From assembly GCA_964036195.1 (NCBI GenBank), contig OZ038459.1, positions 18,907,206 through 18,971,205 of the forward strand: a stretch of 64,000 bases of DNA, in the 5' to 3' direction. Position 1 is the stretch's first letter. The number at the start of each line of letters is the position of its first letter. Source of the stretch: Sphaerolaimus hirsutus. Its lineage: Eukaryota; Nematoda; Chromadorea; Monhysterida; Sphaerolaimidae. The notes under the pieces were generated by a model. That model saw only the letters and a program-made list of their open reading frames with translations, had not been told where the DNA came from and made no database searches. Shown here piece by piece: positions 67 to 52,824 of this stretch. The position numbers and the translations under genes are program-made.

Positions 67-448
67 ATTTGATATTGCTAGACAGGTAATTCCTTCTCGC
101 AATAAAGACAAACAACAAAACAATCCAGTTAAAATATCCATAGAAAAACCCGGGTCTCGTCAAGTCAATATCCAAACCCCACTTTTAAGGGTGAAGACCG
201 GGCCGACATTTCTCAAGCTGCAGCGCGCGGCAAAAGCGCCCATACGCGTTGACTAGATTATGTGCCGCGCGGCAGTGCGCATTGTGCCCATGCGACCACT
301 TTGTGCCGCGCGGCCGCAACACTGCGGCAGCTTGTTGACAATGCGCGTACTTACTGTATTACTATATTTACAGCGGCGACAAGTTTTGGGCTAACTTTGT
401 GACGCGCGCTTCTATGGTGAGCAGGGTATGTGGCTAAACATGGAACCT

Positions 449-617
449 GGGGCCAGTCCCAGACCCTGTAAAATGTCAAGTGTCATGCAAAGTATCAAAA
501 GTCATTTAAAATGCCCTGGAAAATGGCAAACGAATTCTGCCATTTGACAAATCTTTTACATGACTTTTGACACTTTGTGTGACAGTTGACATTTTACAGG
601 GTCTGGGATTGGAACCT
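449..617. mobile_element. MITE family A copy (introner-type family), intergenic
   Basis: Inverted repeats of the form CCAGTCCCAGACCCTG at the left and CAGGGTCTGGGATTGG at the right enclose an interior built from TGTAAAATGTCAAGTGTCATG-like words on both strands, so the element folds on itself. CCTGG lies at both edges. It belongs to the same family as the intron-forming copies at 38124-38284, 40219-40553 and 48438-48621. It has no coding capacity. Confidence 0.75.
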
Positions 618-5771: not shown

Positions 5772-5829
5772 GAAAGTAAATACAAAAGAACTAAAAATTG
5801 ACTACCTCCTTAAGTTGATTGGACATACT

Positions 5830-10710: not shown

Positions 10711-10727
10711 AGTGTCCTTGCACTTGT

Positions 10728-13700: not shown

Positions 13701-15140
13701 TGTGATTGCAGCTTGTATCACCACCATATGTTCCTCCAGAAGTTGAACTAATGCAAAATGCCCCTCAGATGTGTTGAGTGTTTGGGCCCACAAATCTTCT
13801 TCTTGCTGAGCGGCTACTTTTGCTGAGTCGTCTTCTGGATGCTCTTCTGACCAGATTTTCAACTGGTTCATTATTTGCTGCCACTCTGCTTCCACATTCA
13901 AAAGCTTCTCTCTGTGATTGTGAAGTTTATTGCTCAATGTGATCATGTCCATTCTTGCTTTCTTCGCTCGGTGCACATTCGCTTCCGTATTTTCGTCCGG
14001 GTTGGGTTGAAATTGTGGTACTGGCTCTGTCAATGTGTGTCTTGCATTGATTTTGTACAGTGCCAACACCTGTCTCAATCTACCTGATCCTGCCCGCTGC
14101 GCCATGTTTCCAACCGCTTGTCTCTGCACTACTGGGGACACGGTCACCTCCAGTTCAGTCTGTACTTCCCCGACCGTAACATCACTTATTTTTGAATTCG
14201 AAACTTCACCACTCAAAAGTCTGTCCAAACTATACTCAGAAAATACCAAAAACTGCTCATCACAATGCGGCGTCAAACTACCACAGCGCATGCATGAAAA
14301 ACTACCGTGCCTTATGCCAGAATAGTACTTGAAAAACTGCCACGCATAATTGTCAGACACTGAAGAATACCTAGAATCCCTATACTCGTTACTGAAACCT
14401 ATGCGAACTTTGCAACAAAAGTCGTGCGCGCGCCAAACACTGAACAAAGCATTCGCCTCCAAATTGCAAAAATCCCAAATGTCCAAAACAGGAAGTTCCA
14501 AAAAACACAAATTAGACTCAAAAGCCACTTTTTTACCCAAAACTGTCCCATCACTCATCTGCAACTCAGCCCGTTCCTTGTTGATCGTTTTCACAGCCCG
14601 TTTCGTTCTCCTCACTTTGTTCCTCTTCTTTTGACTCTTGTTGACCGTCGCAGGTGGATCCGACGGAGCCTCGAGTTGTTGTCGCACGCCAAGCCACACC
14701 GCCATGGAGTAAAGTCCGTCGAGAAACCATTCCGCCAGTCCGATCGCCAAAGTCCAAAATCCGCCATTAATTAACGACGACTGGCCATTCGAAGTGTCAA
14801 ATTTGCTGCTGCCGGAAATACACTTTCTAGTCGCCCACTGCCACTGTGTCGAAGTGCCCAGACGCCCGTAGAGCCGGATTTTAATTGGTAGGTTCGTTTT
14901 TTGCTTGCGGAATTTTCTAGTTCTGTTTTTCCACTGTCCATAACAATAGGCTGCCAAATGGGCATTGTTCAGACTTTTGTTAGCCGAAATTGGGTTGAAT
15001 TTGTGGTGGTTGACAATGTAATTAGCTCCATACTGGTTGGGGTGTAATTTTTGACTGTAGGATCGATTTATTTCACTCGAAGTTGCATAGAACGCAACTT
15101 CTACGCACAGACTCCACACCACAATGTTTAGTAGCTTCAT
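10728..15140 (-). CDS. LTR leader + gag + protease + reverse transcriptase (BEL/Pao)
   Basis: A 1470-codon frame. Residues 1-345 lie in the 5' LTR. Met346 spans the LTR/primer-binding-site junction (14105-14103) and is the likely conventional gag start. Gag then shows a DUF1759 region (about 13150-13560), three CCHC-like knuckles (about 12690-12880; for example CFKCTGQKHLAKEC) and a 4 x 10-residue tandem repeat. The protease (DUF1758/A17) has FIDGGAQRTFI, that is, DGG where many relatives have D[ST]G. RT has the VADIEKAFLQV motif A; its catalytic box reads YVDN rather than YVDD. The frame stops at 10728 just after RT motif C. Homologous sequence continues in another frame, so pol is broken by a one-base shift. 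Confidence 0.88.
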   Translation of the reverse strand: MKLLNIVVWSLCVEVAFYATSSEINRSYSQKLHPNQYGANYIVNHHKFNPISANKSLNNAHLAAYCYGQWKNRTRKFRKQKTNLPIKIRLYGRLGTSTQWQWATRKCISGSSKFDTSNGQSSLINGGFWTLAIGLAEWFLDGLYSMAVWLGVRQQLEAPSDPPATVNKSQKKRNKVRRTKRAVKTINKERAELQMSDGTVLGKKVAFESNLCFLELPVLDIWDFCNLEANALFSVWRAHDFCCKVRIGFSNEYRDSRYSSVSDNYAWQFFKYYSGIRHGSFSCMRCGSLTPHCDEQFLVFSEYSLDRLLSGEVSNSKISDVTVGEVQTELEVTVSPVVQRQAVGNMAQRAGSGRLRQVLALYKINARHTLTEPVPQFQPNPDENTEANVHRAKKARMDMITLSNKLHNHREKLLNVEAEWQQIMNQLKIWSEEHPEDDSAKVAAQQEEDLWAQTLNTSEGHFALVQLLEEHMVVIQAAITDLEEYIDKTSGRPTNRPMTSAPAEINLLTNPSCSTTTTRTQPKRCKLPTLELEPYHGDSIQWDAWWEAFNNHIHRDTSLDSIQKFTYLRKYVEGEAFDLIKGLRVTTENYTQAIAMLKKNYGRPKDIKRQLYANLQQIQNPKGNYKSLSGFFIDAQAIMHQLKSQGEDMDNLPTIEMVRGKIPSNVMLDMIRIRGDNSDWTMETLMEKLEIVIEQRRETCDPPSSSATTENAAYHEKRGSRYQEKNVKTQQKQSTMNALATTNSTTESRREPKCAFCDGKHYSTECDKYCTANERRIQLAQSDVQKCFKCTGQKHLAKECKANLRCFYCKMNGHHSAMCRKQFPDNQNNQGNARSGENTTLRVQHSTMTVVSQDDDNSEEQVEVGVELIGQSVDTDYPPVERDARAAWSTARDARAAWSTARDARAAWSTARDARAAWSTADVRQGDGRGSRVFFNSTYPPTETDQPIEQCQSEATVSSVRMSTANVIARNPREQRETEIQIFIDGGAQRTFISNKMAKDLKLQPKAFLKMRLNTFRSEKQLSVQAMLTEVLLETREKQEKLIEVYAVEQLATIKPHHEISKKDMAFLQEKWGPEPQKQFGDQLKSTGKNICPDMVLGQDHMWDFMDNSQVVTLPSGMKVIKTAFGYIVNGKDSFAADTNCVLTSMNPVLSGAYELTVESSESEHVQIPAMQEFWALETIGINDDPRASDDDRAKLHFELTTFKDEEGRINVQWPKKDCITQLPENKAMALQRLKSLLQKCKKSETGIKLIEKMHDVMSEQVMKGVIEPVYGEENANQKHYLPLQPVETPGKTTTKLRIVYDASASVKGALSLNDCLHKGPVVLPDLIGILIRFRAGETALVADIEKAFLQVVLQEPDRDLTRFWWFKDPTVLSMENNLQVYRFVRMPFGVNSSPWLLAAAIQYHLQHIDTEFARKVGQSLYVDNLVMSVDDADGGKNVYQKTKELFNQVKMNMREWKSNCGELDQTLPM
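12379..12498. repeat. In-frame 30-bp tandem repeat (4 copies) in gag
   Basis: Four identical 30-bp units encode RDARAAWSTA four times, between the zinc knuckles and the protease. Identity between the units points to very recent expansion, or to an assembly-sensitive region. Confidence 0.9.
14087..14104 (-). promoter_or_regulatory. Primer-binding site
   Basis: The first interior bases in element orientation are TGGCGCAGCGGGCAGGAT. This begins with the TGG complementary to a tRNA CCA end, directly after the LTR terminal CA. The priming tRNA is not identified. The gag ATG overlaps it: A is the last LTR base and TG the first PBS bases. Confidence 0.75.
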
Positions 15141-15352
15141 TTGTTAATCTTTCACTTTCCACACCAAAACACACACTAAACTCAAACTTCTTCATAATTT
15201 TCCTACCAAAACAAATGCCCTTTTGCTTTACATCAAGATCAAAGGTTATCAGATCACTTAAAATACAAAGCTGCGTAAATCCTATTTTTTATAACAGTAA
15301 ACATGAATCACGTATAAAAATTGTTGTTTTTTACGGTAATAATTAAAAACTA

Positions 15353-15509
15353 TTGACATTAAACAATCACTTGACATTTTACATTCAGTTGACATTTTAC
15401 ATATCACTTGACATTTTACATTCAGTTGACATTTTACATATCACTTGACATTTTACTTCAGTTGACATTTTACATTAGTTTGACATTACCCATAGTTGAC
15501 ATTTTACAC
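15353..15509 (-). repeat. TGTAAAATGTCAA array in the 5' LTR
   Basis: About eight copies of TGTAAAATGTCAA, spaced by CTGAA or GTGATA. The same array is at 5338-5494 in the 3' LTR. The unit is the same word that builds the interior of MITE family A. Confidence 0.8.
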
Positions 15510-15583
15510 ATTTTAACTGAAAAAAAAAAAATAACACGAAAAACTAGATAAAAAAACAAATTACCGCTTTTGTTACTTGATTA

Positions 15584-15591
15584 TTTATATA
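15584..15591 (-). promoter_or_regulatory. LTR TATA box
   Basis: TATATAAA in element orientation, about 440 bp upstream of the LTR ORF start at 15140. Transcription from about 30 bp downstream would put the whole leader ORF in the R/U5 part of the RNA. Inferred from sequence only. Confidence 0.45.
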
Positions 15592-15782
15592 AAAAATCAA
15601 TTATCGAAATTTCTGACGAAATACACATGTATAACAATAGCACCAAAAAAAAACGTTTGCGTAATAAAAACAAATACTTATAAGTTTCAGCAGAATATCT
15701 ATATATATACATCAATATGTCAATTATACAAATTTTAATTAACTAAAATTCTAATTATTTTTGCCAGAATGGTGATATTGTG

Positions 15783-25324: not shown

Positions 25325-25500
25325 CAGGGGGCAGTCTCAAACCCTGTAAAATGTCAAGTGTCATGCAAAGTGTCAAAAGTCATGTAAAACGCCCTCAAAA
25401 AATGGCCCTGTACGTTCGCCATTTTCCACAGCATATCATGAATTTTGACATATTGCACATTTGACAGGGCATTTTACAGGGTCTGGAACTGTCCCCTGGG
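25325..25500. mobile_element. MITE family A copy with symmetric ends
   Basis: CAGGGGGCAGTCTCAAACCC at the left and GGGTCTGGAACTGTCCCCTG at the right. The interior words TGTCAAGTGTCATGCAAAGT and their complements form a hairpin. This copy lacks the GTGCC end used as a splice donor in the genic copies. Confidence 0.75.
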
Positions 25501-31169: not shown

Positions 31170-34100
31170 CTGCGGGGGGGGGGGTGGTTTGAGGTTGAGT
31201 CGATTTTTAAGTTTTCGTAGAAGGTAGATTCAATTTTAAGGTCGAGTAAAATTTTTACGTTTGAATCAAATTTAAAGGTATATAAGGTTAAGTCTATTTT
31301 GTAGGTGTCACGAACTGGGCTTGTAAAACAGCTAGTTTATAAAACGATCACATTACTAAAATTTTCTACAAAAACCTAGGTGGTCTTGGCAAAGGAAACA
31401 AAACTGCAAATTCTAGCGAGCTTTGGCATTTCCTGTCCAGATTTCAACGACCCAGACCCACACAGGGTCGAACCTTAGTAGCACCAACAAAACTCACAGC
31501 GCCTTATACAGCACCTTAGCTCGCTCGGCCGCCAGATGGGCGTACCTCGTGGGCGCGGGCACGGAGATAACGCGCGCGCACCGGTAAAACAGGTGGCACA
31601 TGGAGTACATGAGGCACTCCAGTTCGGACAGGCTGAAGCCGTTCTCGTCGTGCAGAACGGTGAAGTGCACCGGTTTGGACGTGCCCTGAGTGCGAGTATT
31701 AATGAATTTGAAACGCGCACGCTGGTTGACAGTCGAAATTGAGGAAACCGATAAATCAGAGCCACTCTCGGACCCTGTAAATGTCATGTAAAGTATCAAA
31801 ATCAACGTACAACGTAAAGTATCAAAATCAATGTTTACTTACAAACTTACTTTTACTGAGCGTCTGACATATTTCATGACATTTTGCACATTCTTGACAC
31901 TCTGCACGATAAAAGACATTTCGCAGGCCCTGGCACTGGCGCCAGGTTTGAGAGAATTATAGTTCACCGGTATAAAAAGTGTCCGTGAACTATACCGGCC
32001 ATAAAGCACCCTCTTTGTCCACACTTCTAAAACCGCACAACCCCCAAAACCCACCTGAATCCCATAATGCGGGATCATATAAAAGTCCACCAAATCAGGA
32101 TGCGTAATCACATTATCCACAACAGTGCCAGCGGGGGCATTTTGGGCCTTGCCCTGGCCCTGGCGGGGGTCGGCGCAGTACAGCCGCGTGCCGTGGCGCT
32201 TGTTCACCACCACGTAGGTTATCTTGGGCTTGACGTAGCTGGGACGGACGGGCTCTTGGAGTTCGCCTGGTGGGGGGGGGGGTTGTTTGAGGTGAATGGC
32301 ACTGAACATTAGTACACCGCTGAAATTTGGGGAACTCATCAATTTGTTTTGGGAACATTTGAGTTGACCACGATGAGGAGTCGACAGACTACTGTTGTCA
32401 ACTGTCAACTACTGTGACGTCGATCAGAAAAGATTCATTGTGGTAAACTCATATTTGCTCAAAATTTTTTATGAGTTTCCAAACTTTCTTTGGTGTTTTT
32501 ACTAGTGTGGGTGGCCCAATACAGGGTTCGCTCTTTTTGAAGTCGATTTATTTCAAGTTTATACACTCACGCGCTTCGGACTTGGTGATTTTGTTTCCTT
32601 TTCCATCGTCGACCAGATCGCGCTCAGGTTTTTCGCCTGCGAAGAGTACGTAAAGGATGGAAAAACGTTGTTTTTTCAACGACAGTTTAAATAAAAAAAA
32701 CAAGTTTTGCTGTCTTCCAAATAAAAGTTTTTTTTTCGAAAGTTCCCGAATATGAGACAACATATACAGGTATATCTAGGGTTGGAAAAAAAACGTTTTT
32801 TTTTAACTCGATGTTTTTTTTTATAAAAAAACGTTTTTTTTATAAAAAAAACGTTTTTTTTTAATAAAAAACGTTTTTTTTTAAAAGCTCCCAGATATGA
32901 CCTTGTGTCAACATATATAGGTATATCAGACAGTGGCAATACTCTGTGATGTTATATATGACCATATAATGTCTGTGGAGCCATGGGATAGCATTATAAG
33001 TGGTGATTTGTGTCAAAAATATCCATTTTTTGTCGACATATCGTTTGTATATCGCCTTATAGTCGAATGTTCGTGACTTCAGGTAAAGTTTGGCACGGAA
33101 TAGTGATCAAACAAGGTTATAAAACGAGGTTGTTACTTTGGGAGTGAAGTTACACACTGTGGAGGTACATGGAAGCACATTACCTCAATATTATATACTA
33201 CAGCAACATATGACGGCTTATTAACCCATGGTAGCACATAGAAATTGATACTTTGACACTAAAAATGCCACAAAACCAATTAAAACCACCACCAATGTCA
33301 ATTTGTGTGTGAAATTGCGCGCTTGCGCGCAAAAATTTTGCAAAATACCTAGTGCTTAGTACTAAAAATTTCGGTCGATGTTTTTTTTAAAAAAAAAACA
33401 TTTCGGACGTCATGTTTTTTTTTTAAAAAAAACGTTTTTTTTAAATAAAAAAACGTTTAAAAAAAAACATCGGCCAACCCTAGGTATATCAGACAAGCGG
33501 CAGTACTTTGTGATGTTACATGGAGCCATGGGGCAGCATTACAACTAATGATTTCAACAAAAAAAATCCATTTTTATTTCGACAACAAAACCCGCCAGCC
33601 ACTCCAATACCAGCAAAGCATTCACAAATCCCACAATCATACACCATCACACCAAAAAAAAACCCCCAAAACCCCCAAACTCCGCCCACTAACCAATCAT
33701 CGACCTAGACCTCTCCTCATCGCTAGAACTGCTCACATAACTAGGTTGATCCATTCTCAACTGGGGCATGGCCTGTGGCCTTTCAGCGCGCGCGTGCGCC
33801 ACCACAAAAGAGCGGGTCGCTTCCCGGCGGCAGCGAGTGGGCAGGGATACAAATTTGCAGGCTGCTTGTAGGGAGCGGAGTTCTTCGGACAGGACCTGGG
33901 ATTTGAATTGGGTTGAGTGGGTTTGGGAGTGTGGAAGGATGTTACCGTAATTTGGTGAATAAAAGTCAAGAGATCAATTGTGCGCCAAATTCACTCAGTG
34001 GGAGCGATGGGCGATGGAAATTATTTGAGTTTTTTCTGCATAATTCAGGTGGATTACTGTAGACTTCATGTCGTACAAGTTGGTTTTCAGTGGTACAATT

Positions 34101-37100: not shown

Positions 37101-40100
37101 TATGTCAACTCGTTACGTATATCACCTTTTGTCGAATATTCGTGACTTCAAGTGAAACCACTCGCTTTAAAAAAAAACTATAAAAAAATTACAAGCCCAC
37201 AACTAACAAAATGCTATTCATCGCATTTGAATTCGTCACATTTGTAACAATGGCGCAGTTGATTTTCTTGGGTGGCCCCCTGAAAATCGGCGCCCTAGGC
37301 AACCGCCAAGTGCCGTCCCTAGTATTCGTGTGGACGGGTTTGTCTGTCGGGTTCAATCTTCCGTACAGCGGCTCCACGGGGCGCATTATTCGGGCGCACA
37401 CCTGAAATTGAGAGGGTTTTTTATGGGCGTAGATTTGGCAGGTGTCGGCGGAATATTTTTTCGCGTCAATGAAGCGGAAATGACCGGTCACATTCAAATT
37501 ATTTTGGAGGTTTCTGGTGAATGTGTGTTGAAAAGACAACGCTGTATCGAATATCGTGGAACCCCGAAAATAATTAGGTGTTACGTTTGCGACAGGTTTC
37601 TGTCCCGAAAAAATGCAGACTTCCTAAGCTTCGGTCTCAGTCTATAAAAACGGTCCAGACGCTCGGCGAAAATTCTGGTTCCGAAAAATTGTCAAATTCC
37701 AAAGCAAAAGATGAAAAAATGAAAAATGACTGTTTGTGCTGAAACATGTGAATTGAAATCTTCATACTGCATTTTCTGCAACTTTTTACATCCAAGTGCA
37801 TTTTTGACATTTTTGTGAAAAATAAGAATCCCTAAATCCCTAACTTTTTAGCCAAAATCCAGATCCAGATCCAGATCCCCCTATCCAGGTTCCCAAGTAA
37901 AAAACAACACCGACCCGGAAAACTCAACCCCCTCGAAACACCCCCCCCCCCGAACCTTCTGCATCTGGCTAGCAACCTTCAAGCCGGCATTCTTCATGAA
38001 CGCGTGCTGCCTGTAGCCGTCCTGCGCGGCGAACATCAAAGCGACTAATTTCTCGGTCAAATTCTTGCGCTCGGGCGCCGGCACAGCCGCCTTCCGGATG
38101 ATGGACGCGTTCAATTCGGGCACCTGGGGGCAGTCCCAGACCCTGTAAAATGTAATGCAAAGTGTCAAAAGTCATGTAAAATGCCCTGCAAAATGGCAAC
38201 TCGGTTGCCATTTTGCAGGGCATTTTCCATGACTTTTGACACTTTGCATGACATTTGACATTTTACAGGGTCTGGGATTGGCACCTGGGGCGTCAGGCGG
38301 CCGGGCAGCCGCTGCGGCACGACCGTGAGCAGTTCGAGCGGCATGTGGATCACGCGACGGCCTGCGATTGGGGGGGGGGGGTAAATGAGGTGGGGGGGGG
38401 GGTGAGACGATGTTTGCGTAGATCAGATATAGAGAGCAGTTTTCAAATGATTTTTTTTCAAAAAAGCCAGAAAGTGGGTTAAAGATAAATTACATATTTA
38501 TCCGCGCAGTGAGGTGTATTGTTGTTATGCAAGGACGTATCCAGGGGGGGGGCGGGGGGGGGGGCTGCAGCCCTGCAGATACGTCCCTGTTGTTATGTCA
38601 TAAATAAATGATGATATCTGCCAAAAAAAACAACTTTTTTGTTTTGGGCATCGGGTCTCGATTTGAACAAGTGAAATTTGACATGAAACAGTGCTTAAAT
38701 ATGCTTAGACCTAAACGAGAAACTTAGTTCATATATCCATATCAAAAATCTCGAAGAAATCCAGAACATCAATTTCAAAAATTCATATCGTCAAACCACA
38801 TTCAGTATTTAGGCGGGGTGGGGGGTAAAAGGAAAAGAGTAACAAACTTTTGCTCTTGCCAAACTGCATCAGCGGCAGGCCCGGGTAGCGTATCGTGAAG
38901 TTGTATTGTTTCTTGTAATAGTCGAATACGCTGACAGTGTGCGTCGACGGCTCGCGCCCTTCCTCGCGACGCGTCCACTCGAAACTTCGAGAAAAAAATT
39001 GGATCAATATCGGAAAGATTGAAAAATATTTTGTGCATAAATAGTATTTTGGGGTTAAATAAAATAAATGGATTGTCAACAAGGACGTATCCAGGATTTT
39101 TGAGCGGGGGGGGGGCTGCTTGTTTACGGAGCCCGGCGAACGGGGGGGGGCTCAGCCCCCCCCCCTAAAATTTTGCCTGTACAGTGACAGAATGGCGCCA
39201 TGGCGCTGGCGCCATTCGTAGGCGCCACGCCATGGCGCTATTGGCGTTGGCGTTAGCGCCAGAAAGCGCTGTAAATGTATGTAAATATACGTACATTCCC
39301 AGCGAAAGGTATATAATTGGGTGCATTTTCTGGTATGTGTGCCACAGGGACCGATATGCAGAAAATGGCATGTGTATAGGGGGCAAATGCGCGCGTGCGC
39401 GCAAAATGTTTGCACACACCGTCGAAAATTTGTACTAAAAGTGGCATTTTCGGGGGGTTTTCATGTCTCACCCCGGGAAGGGGGGGGGCTGCAGCCCCCC
39501 CCCCCCGCCCCCCCCTGGATACGTCCTTGATTGTCAACTAAAGGGCCCTTCAAAAAAGCTAACATTTTCACCCCTCATTTAGGGTTCAAACGGGATTGAC
39601 TTTTCGGGATCGGGATTGGTTTTTTGAGATTTCGGGATCGGGATCGGCCGGGATTGGGGTCACGGGATCGGGATCGGCATTTTTTCGGGATCGGGATTGG
39701 GGTCTTGGGATAGAGATTTTGGCCAATGTTTTGGCATCCACAGTTGTTCATAAAGGTCTAAAAACACTGTTGGATGCCAGAAACGTGGTATAAAATGAAC
39801 GCTGGGGGTTTGCGTTCACATTTTTGCATGCAAAAACGTCATTTTTTCACTTTTGATAATTTCCACTAATTTTTCCGGGATCGGGATCCCGGACTTTGGA
39901 GTTTCTCGGGATCGGGATCGGGACTGCTAAATCCCGGAATTTCACGGGATCCGGGATCGGGATCCCGTTTGAACCCTACCCTCATTCAATAGGTATTTTC
40001 AAAAACGTTTTCAACAAATGGTTATTTTCCATCCGAACAGAAGCAGTCGCCCACAAAATCCATCACACCAACGTTTTCTGCATGGCATTCTCTTCAATCA

Positions 40101-43100
40101 GTTGCGTGCAAGTCCTATGCTGCGGTTTGGAACCCGGGGGCGGAGCCTCATTCGTCATATTCCTCCTGCAAACTTTGAGCCCGGCGATGAACACTTGCAG
40201 GCCGCGCACCACTTGCGGCTGGAGGCAGTCCCAGACCCTGTAACGTGTCCTGTAAAATGTAAAATGTCCTGCAAAGTAGGGGTGGCCGAAAAAGTTTTTT
40301 TTCAACGACAAGGTTTTTTAAAACCCGTTTTTTAAATAATAAAAAACGGTTTCCATAGTCGGGTTATAAAAAAACTACGGTTTTTATTTAAAAACCTTCT
40401 TTTTAAACCCGACCATCCCTAAGTCAAAGTATTAAAAGTCATGTAAATGACAAAGGAACGTTTGCCATTTAACAGGGCATTTTACATGACTTTTGACAGT
40501 TTGCAGGACATTTCACATATTACAGGGCACTTTACAGGGTATAGGATTGGCACCTGGAGCCCGGCGTCGGGCTGCCAGCCGGTCATACGGCGCATGGCCA
40601 GCGCGCCGGCCAGGTAGTGCAGCAAGGGAATCTCGGGCACGTAGGCAGTGTTCGTCACTGGGATTGGTGGGCGGGTTTTTGGTGGAAGGCTTAGGGTTGG
40701 AAAAAAAACGTTTTTTTTTAACTCGATGTTTTTTTATAAAAAAAACGTTTTTTTTTTATAAAAAAAACGTTTTTTTTTAAAAGCTCCCAGATATGACCTA
40801 GTGTCAACATATATAGGTATATCAGACACTGGCAATACTCTGTGATATTAAATATGACCATATAATGGCTGTGGAGCCATGGGATAGCATTATAAGTGGT
40901 GATTTGTGTCAAAAATATCCATTTTTCGTCGACATATTGTTCGTATATCGCCTTATAGTCAAATGTTTGTGAATTCAGGTAAAGTTTGGCACGGAATGGT
41001 GATCAAACAAGGTTATAAAAGGAGGTTGTTACTTTGGGAGTGAAGTTACACACTGTGGAGGTACATGGAAGCACATTACCTCAATATTATATATTACAGC
41101 AACATATGTCGGCTTATTCACCCATGGTAGCACATAGAAATGGATGTTTTGATACTAAAAATGCAACAAAACCAATGAAAACAACCACCAATGTCTATTT
41201 GTGTGTGAAATTGCGCGCTTGCGCGCAAAAATTTTGCAAAATACCTAGTGCTTAGTACTAAAAATTTCGGCCGATGTTTTTTTAAAAAAAAACATTTCGG
41301 ACGTCATGTGTTTTTAAAAAAAAAACGTTTTTTTTCAAAAAAAAACGTTTAAAAAAAACATCGGCCAACCCTAGGAAGGCTATAATAAACGTTTTTAAAA
41401 TTATTTTTTTTTTAATACTAGCTTATCGGGTTCAAACGGAATAGACTTTTCGGGATTGGTATTTTGAATTTTTGGGATCGGGATTTGGGTCACGGGATCG
41501 GGGTTAGTTTTTGGGACTTCGGGATCGGGATTTGGGTTTCGGTATTGAAATTTTGACAAAGTTCTGATTAGGGTTGGCCGATGTTTTTTTANNNNNNNNN
41601 NNNNNNNNNNNNNNNNNNNNNNNNNNNNNNNNNNNNNNNNNNNNNNNNNNNNNNNNNNNNNNNNNNNNNNNNNNNNNNNNNNNNNNNNNNNNNNNNNNNN
41701 NNNNNNNNNNNNNNNNNNNNNNNNNNNNNNNNNNNNNNNNNNNNNNNNNNNNNNNNNNNNNNNNNNNNNNNNNNNNNNNNNNNNNNNNNNNTGGTGGAAG
41801 GCATCAAATAAGGCTAATACAACTACAACGGGTAGGCTCGAACCAGGCACAGAAATTTGACCCCGTTTTTGATGAAATTCAACAGTTTTTTATTAAATAA
41901 AACGTTTTTTAAATTAATTTTTTTTTAAATACTAGTTTATCGGGTTCAAACGGAAAAACATTTCGGAATCGGGATTGGTATTTCGAATTTTTGGGATCGA
42001 GATTTGGGATCGAGATTTGGGTCACGGATCGGGGTTTTTAGGATCGGCATTGGGGTTTCGGTATAGAAATTTTGACAAAGTTCTGATATTCAAAGTTTTT
42101 CTCTAATTTGCAGCAAAAAATGTTCTCAAAATACACCAGAAATGTGGCATCAATTGGAAACTGGAGATTTCGGTTAGATTTCTTGGTGCAAACGTCATTT
42201 AACTCATCGCAAATTTAAGTTTTCAAGTTTTCGGGATCGGGGTTATATGAAAAAATTTTTTCGGGATCGCGATTTCAAAATTTTCGGGGCCGGGATCGGG
42301 CTTAGTTTTTTGAAATTTCGGGATCGGGACCGCAAAATCCCGAAACGTTCCGAGACTCTTCTCAAACAAACAATTAGCATTCATAAACAGTTTCCTCCCC
42401 TCGCCCATCTTCATAGCCACACTGAGCCCGTCGAACAGCTTGCAGTTCATCTCTAGCTGCTTGGTGCTGATACAGGCCAACTGGGGCACTTGGGGGTTGC
42501 CAATGAAGAAAATTCGGCCAGGGGCACACGAGTCGACGGACGGATAAATGGGGCTGCGTAGGTTGGAGGTGAATGTAGATCAGGGGCCAGTCCGCAAATT
42601 GAGAAGTGAAATGGCAAAGGCGAAGTAAAAGCGCAAAGGCGAAGTGAAACGGCAAGTGAATTGGCAAAAGCGAAAAAAAAGAAGTAATTTCTCTTCGCTT
42701 TTGCCATTTCACTTGCCATTTCACTTCGTCTGAAATGGCAAAGGCGAAGTAAAAGCGCAAAGGCGAAGTGAAACGGCAAGTGAATTGGCAAAAGCGAAAA
42801 AAAAGAAGTAATTTCTCTTCGCTTTTGCCATTTCACTTGCCAATTCACTTCGTCTTTGCGCTTTTACTTCGCCTTTGCCATTTCACTTCTCACTTCTCAT
42901 TTTGCTGAACTGGCAACTGGCACATAGATCGTGGTAGTTTGAAGCTATTACTTCTAATGAAACGGCATACCTAAAATAGAACAGTAGGTTTTGGCATTTT
43001 TTCCACCCACGTACACAATAGAACCGGAGGTATATATGAAAAATGTGTGAAACATTTTGGTGAAAAAATAAAACGGCAGTCTTCAATAGAACAGCAGGTA

Positions 43101-46100
43101 AAAAAGTCGACGAAAAACATGGCGCTCTTCTATCAGAAGAAATACGGCAGTTTGATTAAGTATCATTCGCATGTGCAAATACGGCTATGAAAAATCATAA
43201 CCACAAACAAAAATCTAAATGTAAAAGTAATCGCAAAACGCACCGTTCAAATGGGCAGCGGGCATTTTGCGTCATGATGACCTGCATGACTTGGAGCGGC
43301 TGCAGCGACGGGCCCAATTGATCAGGCGCGGCTACGCCGACGCGAGGCTGCGTCAATGCAAGCGCAGGTGGATGCAGGGTCATGGAAGGGAGTCGAATCG
43401 GCGCAGGACCAGTGTACAAGTAAGCCCGGTGCACAAGTTGTCCCGGTGACCAAGTTCTTATACCCCGTGCACAAGTCTACCCGGTGCACAAGTTGAATGA
43501 AGGGTGTCAAAACAATTTTTTTTACAGAAACGGAAACAGAACATTTTTTGCACGTGTCGCAAAACGGACAGCAAAATTTGCACGGAAATGGGAAATAAAA
43601 GTGCAGAAACTTTGCCGGAAAAAAATGTGCAGAAATTTTGCTAGAAACGGGAAAAATAGCATACATTGACATTCGTCCTGCTAAATACCACAAATACCGC
43701 CAACCGCCCCCCGCTAGGATTCAAACGGGATCCCGATCACGAATCCCAAAACTTATCGGAATTCAGCGGTCCCGATCCCGAAATCTGAAAAAAACGAATC
43801 CTGATCGCGATCCCGAATATTTTCAAATCCCAATCCCGAACCCGAAAAGTCAATCCCGTTTGAACCCTACCCCCCGCCCCCAAAAAAAAACAAAAACAAC
43901 AACAAACCTCCTGCTGCCTGGCATTCCTCCCCCCGGGTGCATGCAACCTTATATCCGCCTGCGAAGCCTCCCCATTTCCATTTCCATTAGCCCCATTAGC
44001 GCCGGTGGGGTAGTAGTACTCCAACAAGGTGCGCTGTTTCTCGGCGGAGAAGGGCTCGCAGCCCAAGTGCTGCAGGCGCACTTCGAACTTGCCGGGTCGA
44101 GATTCACCCGTGGGCGTGTGGACGGTGTGGAAGACGGGCTGGGGGGGGGTGGTGGAATTGTTTTGTTGGTTTTAAAAATCGACTGCATTTATTCTAATGA
44201 AACGGCATACATTCAATAGAACGCAACTCCAATAGAACGGCAGGTAAAAGGTTGAACGGAAAAAATAGAACGACGCTTTTCCATTAGAAGAAATGAGAAT
44301 AAAATCCATGTCAATGTGAACTCATTATAAATAATCACCTTTCGTGAACATCCCTAAACAAAAAATCACATTTTGCGAACATTCGTGATCAACATATGAC
44401 CAAAATCTACTTTAATCTCAATAAACGAAATGACCAAATCACTGCACCGTGTAATTTTCCCACATACAAATTCCCAAAGGCGCCACACACGATGGATGTC
44501 AACTGAATTTGTGTCAACTAATTTTAAGTAAATTATGTGATTTCAACTACCCTGGTTCAAAATCTGGTAGAGCATGGTTCATTTTACATCATGACACTTA
44601 ATTTTCATTGTTTCTGTGTGATACTTTAAAAAAATGTGTTTCGTTTTTAGTTGACATTGAGTTGACTCAAATTTCCGATGTCAACTAGCGTGTGTGGGCT
44701 CAAAACCACAAAAAACGCACAGGCGAAGGCAGATTGATCAATTCTAGACTTAGCAGCATGGCGCCGTCGTCGTAGAAACACTGGTACGGGTTGAATCGAA
44801 GCGCCGCGTAATTTTCCTTGATCGTGACCCACAGAATCTCGCGCTTTTCGAGTCTGAATTGGTGACTGGTGAATGTTAATGCGTAAATTTTGCACCATTT
44901 ACATTCATTATGAAGCATTTGTCAATTACTGTGAAGTGGTTATCAAAAGTCCCTGATCGAAGCACAGGTGCTAAGAAAGCCTACCTGCTAATCCCTACCT
45001 TAACATAGCATAGCCACGATGAATAAACATTACAAAGAGTGTTCCTTCTCAATAGGGATTGGACTTGATTTGTCAACTGTTAAAAAATCTGATTTTAAAA
45101 AACCCACATGGTGGCAACTAGGATGTCAACAAAAACTTTTTTTACGGAAAACGAAAACGGAATTTTTTTGCACTTACCAGAAAACGGAAACGCAAAATTT
45201 TTTGCACTTGCCGGAACACGGAGTAAATAAAGGCCGGAAAACGGAAACCGACAAATTTGCTAAAATTCTGCCAGAAACGGATATTCTGCCTCACCCCCAA
45301 ACCCACCTGGACAACTTCCTCCGAACATATCGATCAGTAGAGTCAGCCAAGGCACTGCCAGCTGCAGATTTATCGCCTCCACCCGCATAGGCACCCCTAG
45401 TCTTCAACTCATTAATGGTCACCTGGTAGCGATGCACAATGGGCAAGTCCTTGTTGCCGGAACTTAGCTCGCTGGGGCCCTTCCTCACTTCGTACCAATT
45501 CGCGAGCAAGTCGATCTGGGTGCCGTCGGCGCCGGAGCCGAGCGTGGGGCCCGCCTTGGAGCGGGTGAGCAGCGGCGTGCGGCACGTCTGCGTTTTTGAG
45601 GGGGAAGGGTGATTTTGTTGAATGGATTTAGCTACCGTATTTCCTTGAAATACCACCAGGGCGTTTATTATTTCATTAGATTGTTTTGTGGGGGGGGCTT
45701 AATTTTAGGGGGGTTTGTTATTCCGTCAGAAATTTTGAGGGTGGTGAATTCGAGGGGGTTATTATTTCGTCAGAAGTTTGTAGGATGGTTAATACGAGTG
45801 GGAGGTATTATTTCGGCAGAAATTTTCGTTAAGAGTCGTAGTAAGGAATAGGTTTTTACTTACTAATAATAAATATAAATAATATAAACGTAAACAAAAA
45901 ATATCAGTCAAGGTAATGCGGTAATTGCGTTTCAAATTATAGGTGTGGAACGTACGGCGATTCCCCACAGTTCCTGCAGATCACTTTTATCCTTCTCAAG
46001 CAGCTCCTGACGCCTGCGGCCATCTGCAAACAACAACAACAACATTTTAACAACAATAATATTTTTAACCATCAAAAATTCCGTGAAACCGACATTGAGT

Positions 46101-46805
46101 GGTGGGTTTAACGCGGGAAGCGATAGACTTCTGTCCGTTCGCCGAGCCACTGGGACCCGTGCGCGTGCCAGTGCGATCTTGCGACACGCGCGGCGGGGAA
46201 GCCTGAAAATTTGGTGGTAAATATTGAACGGTTTACGTTGTTTTGCCACAAATTGTCGGATCCATATAAAACGACACAAATTAACGAGCGGTGTGTGGAT
46301 AGGCGTGGGAAGATTTGCACCTATGTCAAGGGTTCAAACGGGATCGCGATCCTGAAACACCAATCGCGAAATTTTAATAAGCCAATCCCGATCTCAAAAA
46401 GACAGTCCCGTTTAAACCCTACCTATATCTCACTGTTTTACCGCACCAATGCACCACAACCGTATAAAAAGTCAGAGAACGCCACGACAACGACATTATC
46501 AACTATTTTCACTAGCACGCCAGGAGCAAACACAGACATGAAAATCTCATCACCCCTTCACAACCTCAAACCCAACCAAAAACACCTGGGGCTGCGTGGG
46601 CGGCGCGGCGGCAGCTTGTTGTTGTTGCTGCTGCTGCTGAGTAGATTCCTGTGCCATGCGCGAACGGCCGCGCGACGTGCCGCGGCCGACCGGCGGCGCG
46701 GCGCCTGAACATTGCGCACGTTGGCACTGTGCCAAAATGGAATTTTAGGGGTGAAAAAAGACGAAACGAACTTCCGCTACTGCTGCCGGCGCCTGATCCG
46801 GACAT
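29619..46805 (-). CDS. Argonaute protein, AGO-like, predicted slicer, 25 exons
   Basis: Small-RNA-guided RNA-binding protein and probable endonuclease. Exons (high to low): 46805-46772, 46704-46586, 46202-46090, 46023-45956, 45587-45307, 44865-44721, 44138-43908, 43347-43244, 42553-42372, 40657-40554, 40218-40069, 38977-38848, 38361-38285, 38123-37956, 37401-37208, 36769-36573, 35966-35777, 35550-35411, 35054-34753, 33895-33694, 32266-32055, 31685-31498, 31169-30986, 30448-30290, 29801-29619. Every junction keeps phase except one within exons 2-4, where a 1-nt conflict remains. The protein would be about 1350 residues, against 850-1000 for typical AGOs. The N, L1, PAZ, L2, MID and PIWI domains follow in order. 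Catalytic Asp (DVTHPTG, 35049-35047), Glu (RANRESIVYG), Asp (IRDGVSEG) and His (PTRYAHLAAERA) are all present. MID has Tyr/Lys in DFYGAMKRV, Gln in IIAQC and two Lys in MKIVAKMGG, matching the 5'-phosphate pocket of human AGO2. PIWI-clade membership is less likely but needs a tree. Confidence 0.93.
30480..30800. mobile_element. Family F fragments in Argonaute intron 23
   Basis: CTACCGTATCTACCGTACC at the left, then CCCCCAGGGGGATTATTCAAG and AAATACGGTAAA. A second fragment with CACCTCGAAATACCTCGAG follows. Confidence 0.5.
31762..31945. mobile_element. MITE family A copy within Argonaute intron 21
   Basis: CACTCTCGGACCCTGTAAATG at the left and AGGCCCTGGCACTGGCGCCAGG at the right. It lies well inside the intron, away from the splice sites, unlike the copies at introns 10 and 13. 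Confidence 0.6.
32777..33482. mobile_element. hAT-like element family B in Argonaute intron 20
   Basis: TAGGGTTGG and CCAACCCTA ends with an 8-bp duplication GGTATATC (32769-32776 and 33483-33490). Ends are AAACGTTTTTTT hairpins and the core is non-coding. Confidence 0.88.
34226..34653. mobile_element. hAT-like MITE family E in Argonaute intron 19
   Basis: CAGGGCCGTATCCAGG and GGATACGTCCCTG ends with a perfect 8-bp duplication AATACAAC (34218-34225 and 34654-34661). Confidence 0.88.
36066..36092. mobile_element. Family E fragment in Argonaute intron 16
   Basis: GGACGTATCCAGGGGGGCTGC, the left end of a family E element, truncated. C and G homopolymers lie around it. Confidence 0.5.
36866..37160. 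mobile_element. Family B fragment in Argonaute intron 15
   Basis: Starts TAGGGTTGGAAAACATTTTTTT and contains the core words GGGATAGCATTATTAGTGGCGA. No right end is seen. Confidence 0.6.
38124..38284 (-). mobile_element. MITE family A copy forming Argonaute intron 13 exactly (introner)
   Basis: In gene orientation the intron is CAG|GTGCCAATCCCAGACC ... GGGACTGCCCCCAG|GTG, 161 bp, all of it family A. CCCAG precedes the element and follows it, as a target duplication would. Exons on both sides join in phase (LTPQ|VPELN). Confidence 0.88.
38525..38592. mobile_element. Family E remnant in Argonaute intron 12
   Basis: CAAGGACGTATCCAGG meets GCAGATACGTCCCTG, so both ends survive with the interior deleted. 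Confidence 0.6.
39080..39529. mobile_element. hAT-like MITE family E in Argonaute intron 11
   Basis: CAAGGACGTATCCAGG and CCTGGATACGTCCTTG ends with a perfect 8-bp duplication ATTGTCAA (39072-39079 and 39530-39537). Confidence 0.88.
39580..39978. mobile_element. hAT-like MITE family C in Argonaute intron 11
   Basis: TAGGGTTCAAACGGGAT and ATCCCGTTTGAACCCTA ends with an 8-bp duplication CCCTCATT (39572-39579 and 39979-39986). Core nearly identical to 26902-27329. Confidence 0.88.
40219..40553 (-). mobile_element. MITE family A copy forming Argonaute intron 10 exactly (introner)
   Basis: In gene orientation CTCCAG|GTGCCAATCC begins the intron and GGGACTGCCTCCAG| ends it, so the donor is the element's end and the acceptor is the second copy of the duplicated TCCAG. 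The exons join in phase (DAGLQ|PQVV). A small family B-like hairpin is nested inside at about 40277-40430 and has lengthened the intron to 335 bp. Confidence 0.88.
40277..40430. mobile_element. Small family B-like hairpin nested in the intron 10 MITE
   Basis: AGGGGTGGCCGAAAAAGTTTTT at the left and CCCGACCATCCCTAAG at the right, mostly A/T homopolymers. Confidence 0.65.
40692..41373. mobile_element. hAT-like element family B in Argonaute intron 9
   Basis: TAGGGTTGG and CCAACCCTA with an 8-bp duplication GGAAGGCT (40684-40691 and 41374-41381). Confidence 0.88.
41430..42352. mobile_element. Family C element interrupted by a family B copy and the assembly gap
   Basis: GGTTCAAACGGAATAGACTTTTCGGG-type sequence at both 41430-41570 and 41940-42350. 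Between them AGGGTTGGCCGATGTTTTTT (41571 on) starts a family B copy that runs into the Ns. Confidence 0.6.
41592..41791. other. Assembly gap (200 Ns)
   Basis: Exactly 200 Ns, so probably a nominal gap size. It lies in Argonaute intron 9 inside a poly-A/T hairpin repeat. Confidence 0.99.
42580..42925. mobile_element. Family H foldback element in Argonaute intron 8
   Basis: CAGGGGCCAGTCC at the left and TTTTGCTGAACTGGCAACTGG at the right. The interior repeats GAAGTGAAATGGCAAAGGCG in both orientations, with one palindrome duplicated in tandem. Related to 58083-58312. Confidence 0.65.
42953..43150. repeat. Family K repeat in Argonaute intron 8
   Basis: TGAAACGGCATACCTAAAATAGAACAG at the left to TCAGAAGAAATACGGCAG at the right. 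Confidence 0.55.
43499..43665. mobile_element. Family N fragment in Argonaute intron 7
   Basis: GAAGGGTGTCAAAACAATTTTTT followed by CGGAAAC/TTTTTGCAC words, as in 45122-45290 and 60401-60594. The right end is unclear. GTGCACAAGT repeats lie just upstream. Confidence 0.5.
43716..43870. mobile_element. Family C short copy in Argonaute intron 7
   Basis: CTAGGATTCAAACGGGATCCC at the left and TCCCGTTTGAACCCTA at the right. Confidence 0.7.
44195..44700. mobile_element. Family K repeat (44195-44298) and family G-like element (about 44472-44700) in Argonaute intron 6
   Basis: Family K words AATGAAACGGCATACATTCAA. Then GCCACACACGATGGATGTCAAC pairs with GATGTCAACTAGCGTGTGTGGG at the right end. The G-like element ends about 20 bp upstream (genomic) of the exon 6 donor. 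Confidence 0.6.
45122..45290. mobile_element. Family N fragment in Argonaute intron 5
   Basis: AGGATGTCAACAAAAACTTTTTTT with ACGGAAAACG words. No right end. Confidence 0.5.
45635..45850. mobile_element. Family F fragment in Argonaute intron 4
   Basis: TACCGTATTTCCTTGAAATACC at the left, then GGGGGTTATTATTTCGTCAG words. Confidence 0.55.
46328..46422. mobile_element. Family C mini copy in Argonaute intron 2
   Basis: AGGGTTCAAACGGGATCGCGA at the left and CAGTCCCGTTTAAACCCTA at the right, about 95 bp. Confidence 0.65.
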
Positions 46806-47307
46806 TGTTTTTCTCGGTTTAAACCGGGTTCGACGAAATTCACAATGAAAAGAGATATATCTCAGAAAATTCACATAGAAACGGGAAAAGAACGGGATGA
46901 GCTTTTTCTTTTTCGCATACAATTCAAACGGACGTGTTTTTTGTACAAACGTGCGGAACGCTTTTTAAACGGACCAATCAGTAACGAGCTATCCCGACGT
47001 TTGCCGCACTTCTAGCTTATCATTTGGCAACTTGCCATCAAGATAAATGGATACGCTTAGAAAGTTAATGTTTATTTCATTGACATTTGTAGCCAAAATG
47101 CATCGCATTCATAGCCTGCTAATCTAACCCATAGTTTCTGAAATTTACCAACATTATTGACTTGATCACTTTTTCAAGGAGTTTTGAACATTTTTCGAAT
47201 ATTTTTCACATTGAAAAGCCTCTTTTCACCGTGTATCCAACTCCTATCCTATTTCGCAACGACTTTGTAAAATAAATTCACGACCCCTCAGGTTTTTTTG
47301 TTGTGAA
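46806..47307. promoter_or_regulatory. Shared intergenic region of divergent Argonaute and Tudor genes
   Basis: Only 502 bp separate the two predicted start codons, so both promoters and 5' UTRs must lie here unless untranslated first exons extend elsewhere. No repeat family copy is seen in it, in contrast to most other intervals of this size in the window. No clear TATA box. Bidirectional promoter function is an inference from spacing. Confidence 0.55.
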
Positions 47308-50300
47308 ATGGCGTCAAAAAGTGAAACCGTTTGGTCGTCGTGGCCGCACGAGCCGAGTGAACAAGCGAAATTAATGAAAAAAGCACGCGCTGAGCAAAAA
47401 CGGAACAAATGCAGGGATTTGGTCCATGTGCCCGACAGGCTGGCTGAAAGATTGGAAAGTTGGTTTGGCAATTTTGTCGGTGTTGTGGTGACTTTGGCCC
47501 CACACGCTAGTTGACATCGACACCAAATGTCAACTGGTTCCGTTCCTAATTCAAAGATTGCGTTTGAACGTCGTTCGTCCACTCGTCAGCAAGCTTTGAA
47601 TCGTGACCGGCACCAGTTGACATTTGGTGTCGATGTCAACTAGCGTGTGTGGGCCCTTTATGAGTTTTTCACAAAAGTAGGACGTTTTTTGCTTTCAGTT
47701 TTACAGCGAAAGTACCCCGACGCGTGTTGGCGATATCCCCCTGCCGAACTGCTAATACCCTTCTACACGCAGCAATTGAAATTGGGAGTGTGTTTCCATT
47801 TTTGGTGGCTGAAAGTGTGTTTTTCTTTATTTTCACTTTTTTACTTTATCGCAGAGGCACTCTGGGTGCTCATCTGCGATGGAAACTTTCTACGCGCTGG
47901 TCAACTTTCATTGTTCGCCATGGGAATTCTATTTACAGGTGATTTTTTGGCGTCAAGTGAAAGCATACATTTTTGAAATGAGTTTCTCGCTTTTCCAGCC
48001 AAAAGCTTTTGAGCCATTGCGAGACCGGCTTTCCAATCAAACGGCAGAAGTTTACGGGGATGACACGATACAGTCGTTTGAACCTGATGATGTTGGTTTG
48101 CTTTGAAAGATGGTTTTAATAACATGGGTTAAATGAGTTTTAGCCATTCGATGGTTAGATGGAATAGCTAGCGATAAATGCATGGGGAATATCGTTTTTT
48201 TATACTTTTAACCAAAAAATCTATATGCGAAAATTTTGAAATTTGAAAAATAACAAAAAATCAGACGCAATTATTGGACATCATTAGTTGCCAAATAACA
48301 AATGTATAGCACTCCATTCCTCAAAACGCTCTAACATACCATTTCACAGCTTGTGTTCTCACCAAAATGCCTCACTTTACAGCTATATCTGGGCTGCCCA
48401 ATAGTGTGCCCATGCCCCTCATCAAGCGCGGAACCAGGTGCCAATCCCAGACCTTGTAAATGCCCTGTAGAATGTCAAATGTCGTGCTAAGTATCAAAAG
48501 TCATGCAAAATGCCCTGAAAAATGGCAACGTACGTTGCATTGCATTTTACATGACCTTTGACACTTTGCACAGCATTTTACATTTTACAGGGCATTTCAC
48601 AGGATCCGGGACTGCCCCCAGAATGTAGTGTCGCTTGGTGCCGCGCGGTCATTCTACGCTTGCCAGCGAACATGGCTTCTGATGATAGCACGGTATTTGT
48701 GCGTTTTGTGGACTGGGGCCACACTGGAATGGTCTGGTCGGCTGAGTGCAAACCGCTTTTGGCCAGGTTTTCTAGATGTCCACCGTTGGCGATTCATTGC
48801 AGGATGTCCAGTGGGTTTTGGGGTTTTGAGGGGTTTTTGAGCTGGTGAATATTATGAGTCACGGTTGTGGTATTTCCTGATTGACAGCACCCAGTACGCA
48901 CTAGGGTTGGAAAAAAACGTTTTTTTTTAACTCGATGTTTTTTATAAAAAAACAACGTTTTTTTAAAAAAAACGTTTTTTTTTAAAGCTCCCAGATATGA
49001 CCTAGTGTCAACATATATAGGTATATCAGACATTGGCAATACTCTGTGATGTTAAATATGACCATATAATGGCTGTGGAGCCATGGGATAGCATTATAAG
49101 TGGTGATTTGTGTCAAAAATATCCATTTTTCGTCGACATATCGTTCGTATATCGCCTTATAGTCGAATGTTCGTGACTTCAGGTAAAGTTTGGCACGGAA
49201 TGGTGATCAAACAAGGTTATAAAAGGAGGTTGTTACTTTGGGAGTGAAGTTACACATTGTGGAGGTACATGGAAGCACATTACCTCAATATTATATATTA
49301 CAGCAACATATGTCGGCTTATTCACCCATGGTGGCACATAGAAATGAATGTTTTGATACTAAAAATGCAACAAAACCAATGAAAACAACCACCAATGTCA
49401 ATAAATTTTGCAAAATACCTAGTGCTTAGTACTAAAAATTTCAGCCGATGTTTTTTAAAAAAAAAAAACATTTCGGACGTCATGTTTTTTTTATAAAAAA
49501 AACGTTTTTTTATTATAAAAAAACGTTTTAAAAAAAACATCGGCCAACCCTAGTACGCACACTAGTTAACGGCCGACATTTCTCATAGATGCAAACGCTG
49601 TTGAAATGTGATCACGATTAATTTTTGTCGATGCTTGTTTGGTCACTTAGAATTTAGAAACATTATTCACAACCCACGCATCACATTGTAGGTATTCACA
49701 CTTCGAATGATTTTACAAATTTCCTTATCAGACATCGACATCAACGATTTGACATCTGACAGAGTGGAAGATTTCATGCAGACAATGTCCGATGTGGCCT
49801 ACCAAGCGCGTGTGCAATTGCTGAAATTTGGTGATCCATTGATTGTAAAATTGTGGCACCCTACTGTGATGGGTGTAGATTTGGGCAAAAGTTTCTATTT
49901 GAATGGACCTAGATACCCTTTGCGAAATGTGCGCTTTTTTATTTAAATGTTTATTTAAAATTCGTTTCATAATTCTGGCATTTTTCTCGCAGGCAGTAGC
50001 TAGACATGGGGAAATTTATTCGGAACGGGACTTGGATTGGAGCAACGGTAGCGGCTCTTCGTCAAGCACTAAGTGTTGGTTACGTTTTCACTCCATCCTT
50101 TCTCAATGTTAAGTTGGCACGTGTGCTTTCAACCAGGGACGTACGCAGGATTTTTGAGCGGGGGGGGGGCGGATTGTATACGGAGCCCGGCGAATGGGCC
50201 CCGCCCCCCCCATAAACTTTGGCCCTATAGCAAAGGAATGGAGCCATGGCGCTGGCGCCATTTGTAGGCGGCAGCGCCATGGCAGTTTTGGTGTTGGCGT

Positions 50301-51692: not shown

Positions 51693-52824
51693 CCCCGTTT
51701 ACCTAGGTCCGAACGCTTATGAATTTTTGAAAAACGATCAATTCATGGCCCCCCCTAAACTTTTGGGAAAATTCACCCCATACAAAAGATAGCCCAAAGA
51801 GTTGTCTAAATGATGTATGGTAGTCCCCCCAATATAAGGCCGCGTGGGCCGTGTAAACGGCCCACGCATTTTTTTATACAAAAATGCACTGATCACCTTG
51901 CTCTGAACGTTTCTTTTTATATGCTTATATTCTGTTTTTCAAGGCCAGAATTTGGCCATAATACAGAACAGAGTCCTGGCTTAGTGCCAAATGCCATTTC
52001 GACGGTTTCTTTCCAGGCAGAAATAAGATTAGGATATTTTCAATTTTCACTGTTTTGTATTGCGATCATGATCAGCTGTGATTGTGATCATTTTATCTCC
52101 TAATGTTAGATCTATTAACACAGAAAATGCTTCCACCAGAAAGAGAAATCTTAAGCGGTTTTTTTAAAACCTACACCGCTCAAATTCACCTACCCAAACA
52201 TTAGAATTTGAGGGGCGAATTTTATTAAACATTGTTAAATTTTACTTACTACTAATTTCCTTCCCCGGATGAAATGTACTAAGTTTAATAAATTTCGCCC
52301 CTCAAATTCTAATGTTTGGGTAGGTGAATTTAAGTGGTGTAGGTTTTAAAAAAACCGCTTAAGATTTCTCTTTCTGGTGGAAGCATTTTCTGTGTTAATA
52401 GATCTAACATTAGGAGATAAAATGATCACAATCACAGCTGATCGTGATCGCAATACAAAACAGTGAAAATTGAAAATATCCTAATCTTATTTCTGCCTGG
52501 AAAGAAACCGTCGAAATGGCATTTGGCACTAAGCCAGGACTCTGTTCTGTATTATGGCCAAATTCTGGCCTTGAAAAACAGAATATAAGCATATAAAAAG
52601 AAACGTTCGGAGCAAGGTGATCAGTGCATTTTTGTATAAAAAAATGTGTGGGCTGTTTACACGGCCCACGCGGCCTTATATTGGGGGGCATACCATACAT
52701 CATTTAGACAACTCTTTGGGCTATCTTTTGTATGGGGTGAATTTTTCCAAAAAGTTTAGGGGGGGGGCCATGAATGAATTGTTTTTCAAAAATTCGTAAG
52801 TGTTCGGACCTAGGTAAACGGGGG
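51693..52824. repeat. 1.13 kb palindromic foldback element
   Basis: Two arms of about 540 bp (51693-52230 and 52283-52824) are near-identical inverted copies around a 52-bp spacer. Outer ends are CCCCCGTTTACCTAGGTC. Each arm carries the same 97-codon frame (51810-52103 +, 52410-52703 -) with a few substitutions, which simply reflects arm identity. A shorter palindrome GCGTGGGCCGT/ACGGCCCACGC lies within the left arm. No target duplication was found. Confidence 0.9.

Follow-up and report, generated by a model that had tools for sequence, protein, structure and literature searches.

The survey of Gozashti et al. (2022; PMC9860276) records 548 introner families in 175 genomes, places two groups among animals, names copepods, and describes families in which the element brings one splice site and the target duplication provides the other, the element's own being the 5' site in one of them. 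Here we analysed a 64,000-nt stretch of the genome of the nematode Sphaerolaimus hirsutus (the window; contig OZ038459.1, positions 18,907,206 to 18,971,205 of GCA_964036195.1, or C15:18907206-18971205 of the 348-Mb, 762-contig assembly), in which three copies (A1, A2 and A3) of one miniature inverted-repeat transposable element (MITE) coincide with putative introns of an Argonaute gene and a Tudor gene. They are very probably introner copies, made by a non-autonomous MITE whose insertion into an exon would create a spliceosomal intron at once, and the best reading is that this introner inserts at CWG (W being A or T), a target of the PIF/Harbinger-like (NuwaI) type.

Like the surveyed introners, these are similar introns whose similarity runs up to both splice boundaries, and many of the surveyed introners also have target duplications and terminal repeats (PMC9860276). 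Similarity reached both boundaries in A1–A3, and 11 of 14 exonic copies elsewhere in the genome had GT-AG there, intron status being judged from frame and homology. A Chrysochromulina introner family in the same source likewise has its own 5' splice site and a 3' site from the duplication, but its duplication is 4 bp and it has no evident terminal repeats, whereas the present family has a 3-bp CWG duplication and terminal inverted repeats (PMC9860276). CWG target duplication, seen here in 58 of 84 sampled copies, is shared with the NuwaI group of PHIS (PIF/Harbinger-related) transposons, described from animals; NuwaI ends usually begin GGG, whereas one terminus of the present family begins GTG and the other GGGGC, and the accessible text on NuwaI mentions no intron formation (PMC4482050). 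In the nonconventional and intermediate introns of euglenids, too, the ends are drawn close by stable folding of the RNA, but the nonconventional ones are described as having variable borders and a removal mechanism that is not known, whereas the present family has GT and mostly AG (PMC4770533).

In gene sense, A1–A3 are bounded as CAG^GTGCC...GCC(C/T)C^CAG (the caret marks an element boundary or, in proteins, the restored junction). A1 (158 bp, 38127..38284, minus strand) reads CCCCAG^GTGCCAAT...ACTGCCCC^CAG; its upstream target copy (38285..38287) is the end of the upstream exon, and its downstream copy (38124..38126) supplies the acceptor AG and completes a putative Argonaute intron. A2 (332 bp, 40222..40553, minus strand) reads CTCCAG^GTGCCAAT...ACTGCCTC^CAG and, together with the downstream CAG (40219..40221; upstream CAG at 40554..40556), would be a second Argonaute intron. 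A3 (181 bp, 48438..48618, plus strand) reads AACCAG^GTGCCAAT...ACTGCCCC^CAG, lies between target copies at 48435..48437 and 48619..48621, and would likewise, with the latter, be an intron of the Tudor gene. These three assignments draw on element match, frame and ends. If retained, the stretches of 161, 335 and 184 nt would bring stops in all three frames; when the flanks were joined without the element and with one CAG, an open frame ran across all three junctions, in agreement with a preliminary description of this DNA, which had the exons rejoining in phase. That description also took each intron to be a family element from end to end. This holds for the bounds of all three, but A2 is interrupted within: bases 1–129 and 277–335 match A3 and bases 130–276 do not, and the nonmatching part (40278..40424, minus strand, ends approximate), judged by comparison of A2 with A3 and from its sequence, looks like a second, palindromic insertion nested inside.

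The joined Argonaute exons matched human AGO1 (PDB 4kre, E = 1.9e-7), another exon of the gene matched Piwi (PF02171, 8.2e-14), and the exon 3' of A3 matched Tudor (PF00567, 1.4e-7). The homologue alignment spans the junction for A1 only. Since the AGO1 alignment stops short of A2, whose join, like that of A1, gave no Pfam match by itself, and the Tudor match starts five residues past the A3 junction, the evidence for A2 and A3 is the frame and the boundaries of the element. A genome search for an intronless Argonaute paralogue returned three exon matches, all within the gene itself, and when the Argonaute protein was used to look for transcripts or near relatives, the search returned only distant proteins (26–36% identity) among the 120 listed of 539.

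The 16-base element end GTGCCAATCCCAGACC occurs 1,266 times in the genome and its reversed control not at all, so matches to the family are more than chance. A genome search with A1, in which the best 40 of 528 candidates were scored, gave at least 82 matches, in which many palindromic copies appear twice, once per strand, and yielded 23 non-redundant loci outside the window. A second sample came from the first 100 places of GTGCCAATCCCAGACC, all on contig C1, of which 90 were taken. Both ends were located in 69 of these 90 and in 15 of the 23, and the other 21 and 8 loci were dropped before any counts for want of the second end; the working sample is thus 84 copies outside the window, with doubtful far ends in two of the 69 (L040 and L055). 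The consensus of 59 A-type copies of 160–200 bases is 189 bases long and folds back along its whole length. The termini, GTGCCAATCCC and GGGGCAGTCCC, are asymmetric, one beginning GTGCC and the other GGGGC (the reverse complement of GCCCC). The family is short, lacks its own transposase, and has terminal inverted repeats, a target duplication and many copies (the 1,266 exact ends), as expected of a MITE. Sampled copies differ from the consensus by 2–37% and the closest sampled pairs by about 5%; of the earlier proposal of an active or recent intron-gain transposon, the introner reading is supported and current activity is not. A second subfamily, with ends CAATCCCAAGCCCTGTAAAGTGTAAAG (for example C1:1383544-1383741), has a clearly distinct interior and has in common with the first the CWG flanks and an excess of CTG/CAG copies (upstream/downstream target copy).

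The target duplication was analysed in the 58 copies chosen for CWG at both ends, the other 26 of 84 being excluded. The two sides agree at position -4 in 30 of these and at -5 in 14, no more often than composition would give, and the duplication is therefore 3 bp, CWG, and not the 4–5 bp direct repeat of the preliminary description. The extra C's next to CAG would so reflect target preference and the element end and not duplication. The insertion context tends to A-C-CWG-G; zebrafish Harbinger3 and its MITEs have a target around ACCWGGT, close to this preference, and are not known as introners.

To find copies in exons, the element and one CWG were removed at each locus, and the translation of the rejoined flanks was searched against Pfam and PDB. 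Fourteen of the 84 sampled copies sit in exons with such support. Eight were over the Pfam cut-off: leucine-rich repeat (L038), FAT4-type cadherin (L062), calpain (L079), CBS of AMPK gamma (L051; PDB 2.7e-34), chondroitin GalNAc-transferase (L048; PDB 2.4e-10), ABC transporter (L095; PDB 2.7e-37), trypsin (L112) and intermediate filament (L106). Five were under it, namely VPS11 (L022, 1.2e-9), cadherin (L061, 3.8e-5), IBR (L029, 8.7e-5), C2H2 (L059, 0.0024) and amnionless (L011, 4.2e-5), and CTR9 (L084) matched in PDB only (6.1e-12). In eight of the 14 (L011, L022, L048, L051, L084, L095, L106 and L112) the homologue or family alignment runs through the junction, so the exon sequence there is ancestral; in the remaining six the match is on the same strand and adjoins the junction without crossing it. 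The FAT-type cadherin, amnionless, chondroitin-synthesis and intermediate-filament genes among them are indicative of an animal genome. Residues restored at the junction include LDQ^NDNAPQF in cadherin, RIALA^RALYLKPSILLLDE in the ABC protein, KL^VVFDT in AMPK gamma and IVGGDEAEPHSYP^WQV in trypsin. Further loci were kept outside the 14: five judged coding by eye without a database match (L043, L085, L102, L107 and L108); L092, a membrane segment with sub-cut-off matches only; L021, which we take by eye to be peroxidase-like, without a database match; and L076, presumably SETD3-like, also without a match, where a tryptophan codon split by the junction, W (TG^G), is what an insertion at CTG would leave. 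L110, a CAG/CTG copy that was likewise left out, lies in a flavin monooxygenase gene (Pfam FMO-like) directly 5' of the exon where the match starts, perhaps in the leader.

Orientation in these exons was strongly biased. The GTGCC end was 5' in gene sense in 13 of the 14 supported copies (p = 0.0018), in 12 of 13 when L061 and L062 were counted once (p = 0.0034), and in 8 of 9 in a strict set limited to matches over the Pfam cut-off and the CTR9 match in PDB at 6e-12 (p = 0.039). GT-AG stood at the element boundary in 11 of 14 (p = 4e-5 against the one quarter expected from random orientation and random W) and in 6 of 9 of the strict set (p = 0.010). The sole reversed copy, in CTR9, has a changed other terminus and reads CAG^GTGGCAG...GGCAC^CAG in gene sense, with GT and AG at the boundary; it was spotted by eye in the list of open reading frames (ORFs) and then confirmed in PDB, and was the only minus-strand ORF put to PDB. 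Among 58 minus-strand ORFs of at least 50 residues across junctions, taken from unassigned loci (13 assigned loci, three of them in the window, were excluded except L048), none was over the Pfam cut-off and two matched weakly (E = 0.0076 and 0.039), CTR9 also being missed by Pfam; the 76 plus-strand ORFs across junctions were scanned in part. Strand was called from Pfam and PDB matches because scoring the joined flanks by codon usage (leave-one-out training) did not discriminate well enough (at a score of at least 8, 7 plus versus 2 minus). Overall, the supported exonic copies agree with the earlier proposals that the element end supplies GT and the second target copy AG, as seen at A1–A3, and that the single terminus with GT fixes orientation; three forward CTG/CTG copies fall outside this simple model.

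Target classes were counted genome-wide among end-exact copies with 145–175 bases between the end patterns, duplicate contigs included. There were 427 CAG/CAG, 285 CTG/CTG, 142 CTG/CAG and 44 CAG/CTG copies, with CAG/CAG in excess over CTG/CTG (p = 1e-7) and CTG/CAG over CAG/CTG (p = 3e-13). The mixed classes were also uneven in the A-type subset (76 vs 23, p = 9e-8; the 23 were tallied by eye and include near-identical copies on small contigs) and in the rest (66 vs 21, p = 1.4e-6). The excess suggests that CTG insertions gain the missing AG, most likely when the T of the downstream copy mutates to A. Were the roughly 100 excess mixed copies added back to CTG/CTG, there would be about as many CAG as CTG insertions, the expectation for a palindromic target, although this is arithmetic and not a test. 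The idea that acceptor-completed CTG/CAG copies had lost a competing internal AG was dropped, as it was true in two of four (L059 and L076, not L022 and L043), which is too few.

The A1 RNA is predicted to fold with -110 kcal/mol, against a mean of -38.7 for shuffled sequences (z = -17.5; 0 of 200 shuffles as good). The consensus (-160.7) gives a single long hairpin that leaves four bases free at the 5' end (GUGC) and seven at the 3' end (CCCCCAG), and in its stem internal GUAAAA and UUUUACAG pair with each other. When exonic copies were folded (n = 19, including three members judged by eye, A1 and A3), the first four bases were unpaired in 15 and GU in 17. From these models we infer that the hairpin may mask internal sites and bring the outer ones together. 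Per base, the exonic copies folded to a lower energy (-0.680, n = 19) than low-GC copies did (-0.515, n = 31; p = 0.003), but this was not relied on because the two sets may differ in age.

The mechanism we propose would begin with a transposase, presumably of the PIF/Harbinger-like CWG (NuwaI) type, that inserts the element at CWG in a context of about A-C-CWG-G and duplicates three bases; target and duplication are read from the sequence, as is the next step, in which the GTGCC terminus in one orientation would make the upstream exon read C(A/T)G^GT, a donor. Where the target is CAG in gene sense (W = A), the downstream copy would place a CAG acceptor at the end of the element, and the reading frame would be restored exactly once the element is removed, the frame being read directly and splicing being the presumed route. 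CTG insertions would lack the acceptor, and some would gain AG later by T to A downstream, as the surplus of CTG/CAG over CAG/CTG suggests. Pairing of the internal sites in the predicted hairpin, with outer GU and CAG left unpaired and close, may favour the outer sites. A fuller version remains tentative and, on balance, doubtful: a W-gated, hairpin-assisted introner in which about half of all insertions (CAG) would be complete introns at birth, the CTG half would be forward half-introns in coding exons, removed by a GT-TG or other hairpin-assisted route until the downstream T to A change, and the asymmetric termini (GTGCC vs GCCCC) would keep the splice sites outside the hairpin, as ends shaped for splicing. 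Introners are already known; the CWG gate and the acceptor-completing signature look new, as no description of them, nor of broken terminal symmetry that frees both splice sites from a near-perfect hairpin, was found by title or start of abstract in a literature search that covered subscription papers and preprints in part.

Several observations weigh against this account. Of the exonic copies, L061 and L062 are only 1.3 kb apart and probably lie in one gene, and the main puzzle is posed by three others (L048, L051 and L112), which sit forward in conserved exons as CTG/CTG and so lack a boundary AG. The tail of the L051 element is one base shorter, so that use of the internal acceptor would lengthen the message by 18 nt in frame; for L048 and L112 the gain would be 19 nt, with a frameshift. 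GT-TG splicing, partial function or damaged alleles are possible explanations. Copies ending GCCAC, which could act in reverse, were unbiased (9 and 9). The Argonaute query has three extra residues (VPE) relative to AGO1 directly after the A1 junction. In the looser sample the mixed classes numbered 9 and 7 and the genome-wide excess was not seen, which confines the CTG/CAG excess to copies with intact ends. Finally, a transposase with the family's ends was not found: the search gave DDE_Tnp_4 domain matches only, whose flanks were not read, and Myb/SANT was not searched. At least 163 such matches exist in the genome (best 150 of 306 candidates scored), none linked to the element family. One large, near-uniform DDE_Tnp_4 family (for example C7:5776843-5777475) has four in-frame TGA in the match region of most listed copies, which may reflect decay of these copies, the presence of an intron or a fault in the frame.

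The same data bear on three other explanations. The introns might be older, with the MITE inserted into them or replacing them later, and family remnants do lie in another Argonaute-gene intron (31780-31940, with the end GCGCCAG) away from a clean exon edge. Secondary insertion would not, however, make both element ends coincide with splice boundaries in gene after unrelated gene or favour one orientation, and in A1–A3 the similarity reaches both splice boundaries and the CWG duplication is split between exon end and intron end, so that we regard an older origin as highly improbable. Equally hard to sustain is the view that the elements sit unspliced in exons as plain MITEs in damaged alleles or pseudogenes. 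Their splicing is deduced from genomic sequence, and L048, L051 and L112 in conserved exons without a boundary AG would suit such damage, which, however, predicts no bias of orientation or target, whereas 13 of 14 copies are forward, 11 of 14 have GT-AG and the reversed copy has its terminus changed to GT. More credible, although still unlikely, is that the CTG/CAG class arose from CAG insertions by A to T in the exon end, or from a feature of transposition, and not from acceptor repair. Both routes give the same end state, and mismatched W pairs also occur in non-coding sampled copies, in line with the 9 and 7 of the loose sample, but neutral change should make CTG/CAG and CAG/CTG equal, whereas end-exact copies stand at 142 and 44, and the L076 junction would fit insertion at CTG. 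An introner that takes its acceptor from the CWG duplication thus accounts best for A1–A3.

Elsewhere in the window, a further family copy lies at 447..615 (minus strand), reading CAG^GTTCC...GCCCC^CAG in its own orientation with no surrounding gene shown, and a more diverged one at 25327..25496 (strand not assigned), outside any shown exon; both were recognised by family match. A repeat of at least 300 nt with 91–100% similarity has three copies near or in the Argonaute and Tudor genes (32834-33133, 40730-41029 and 48934-49233). The Argonaute gene region also holds an inverted repeat (42597-42895; 135-nt arms, 87% complementary) that by eye is unrelated to the element family, and another lies at 51749-52764 (487-nt arms, 97% complementary, 42-nt spacer). 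Direct repeats at 4090-5760 and 14104-15775, 100% identical and 10 kb apart, flank ORFs at 5830-10761 and 10728-15143; this region (4090-15775) with its two long ORFs looks like a recently inserted BEL/Pao-type retroelement.

Argonaute and Tudor genes are of kinds that often act in transposon silencing; as targets here they are two genes only, and this may be coincidence. The origin of new introns is an old question, and mass gain is documented in few animal groups (two in PMC9860276). One family in one genome seems to offer a graded series of complete introns, insertions without the acceptor base and apparently repaired ones; if this is true, one could measure directly what the lack of a splice site costs and how fast it is repaired. 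The family also suggests a simple rule for how a transposon family may turn introner, namely that a terminus beginning GT abuts a CWG target of 3 bp. New introns can apparently arise by transposition in this nematode, and a suitable exonic copy looks like a ready-made intron.

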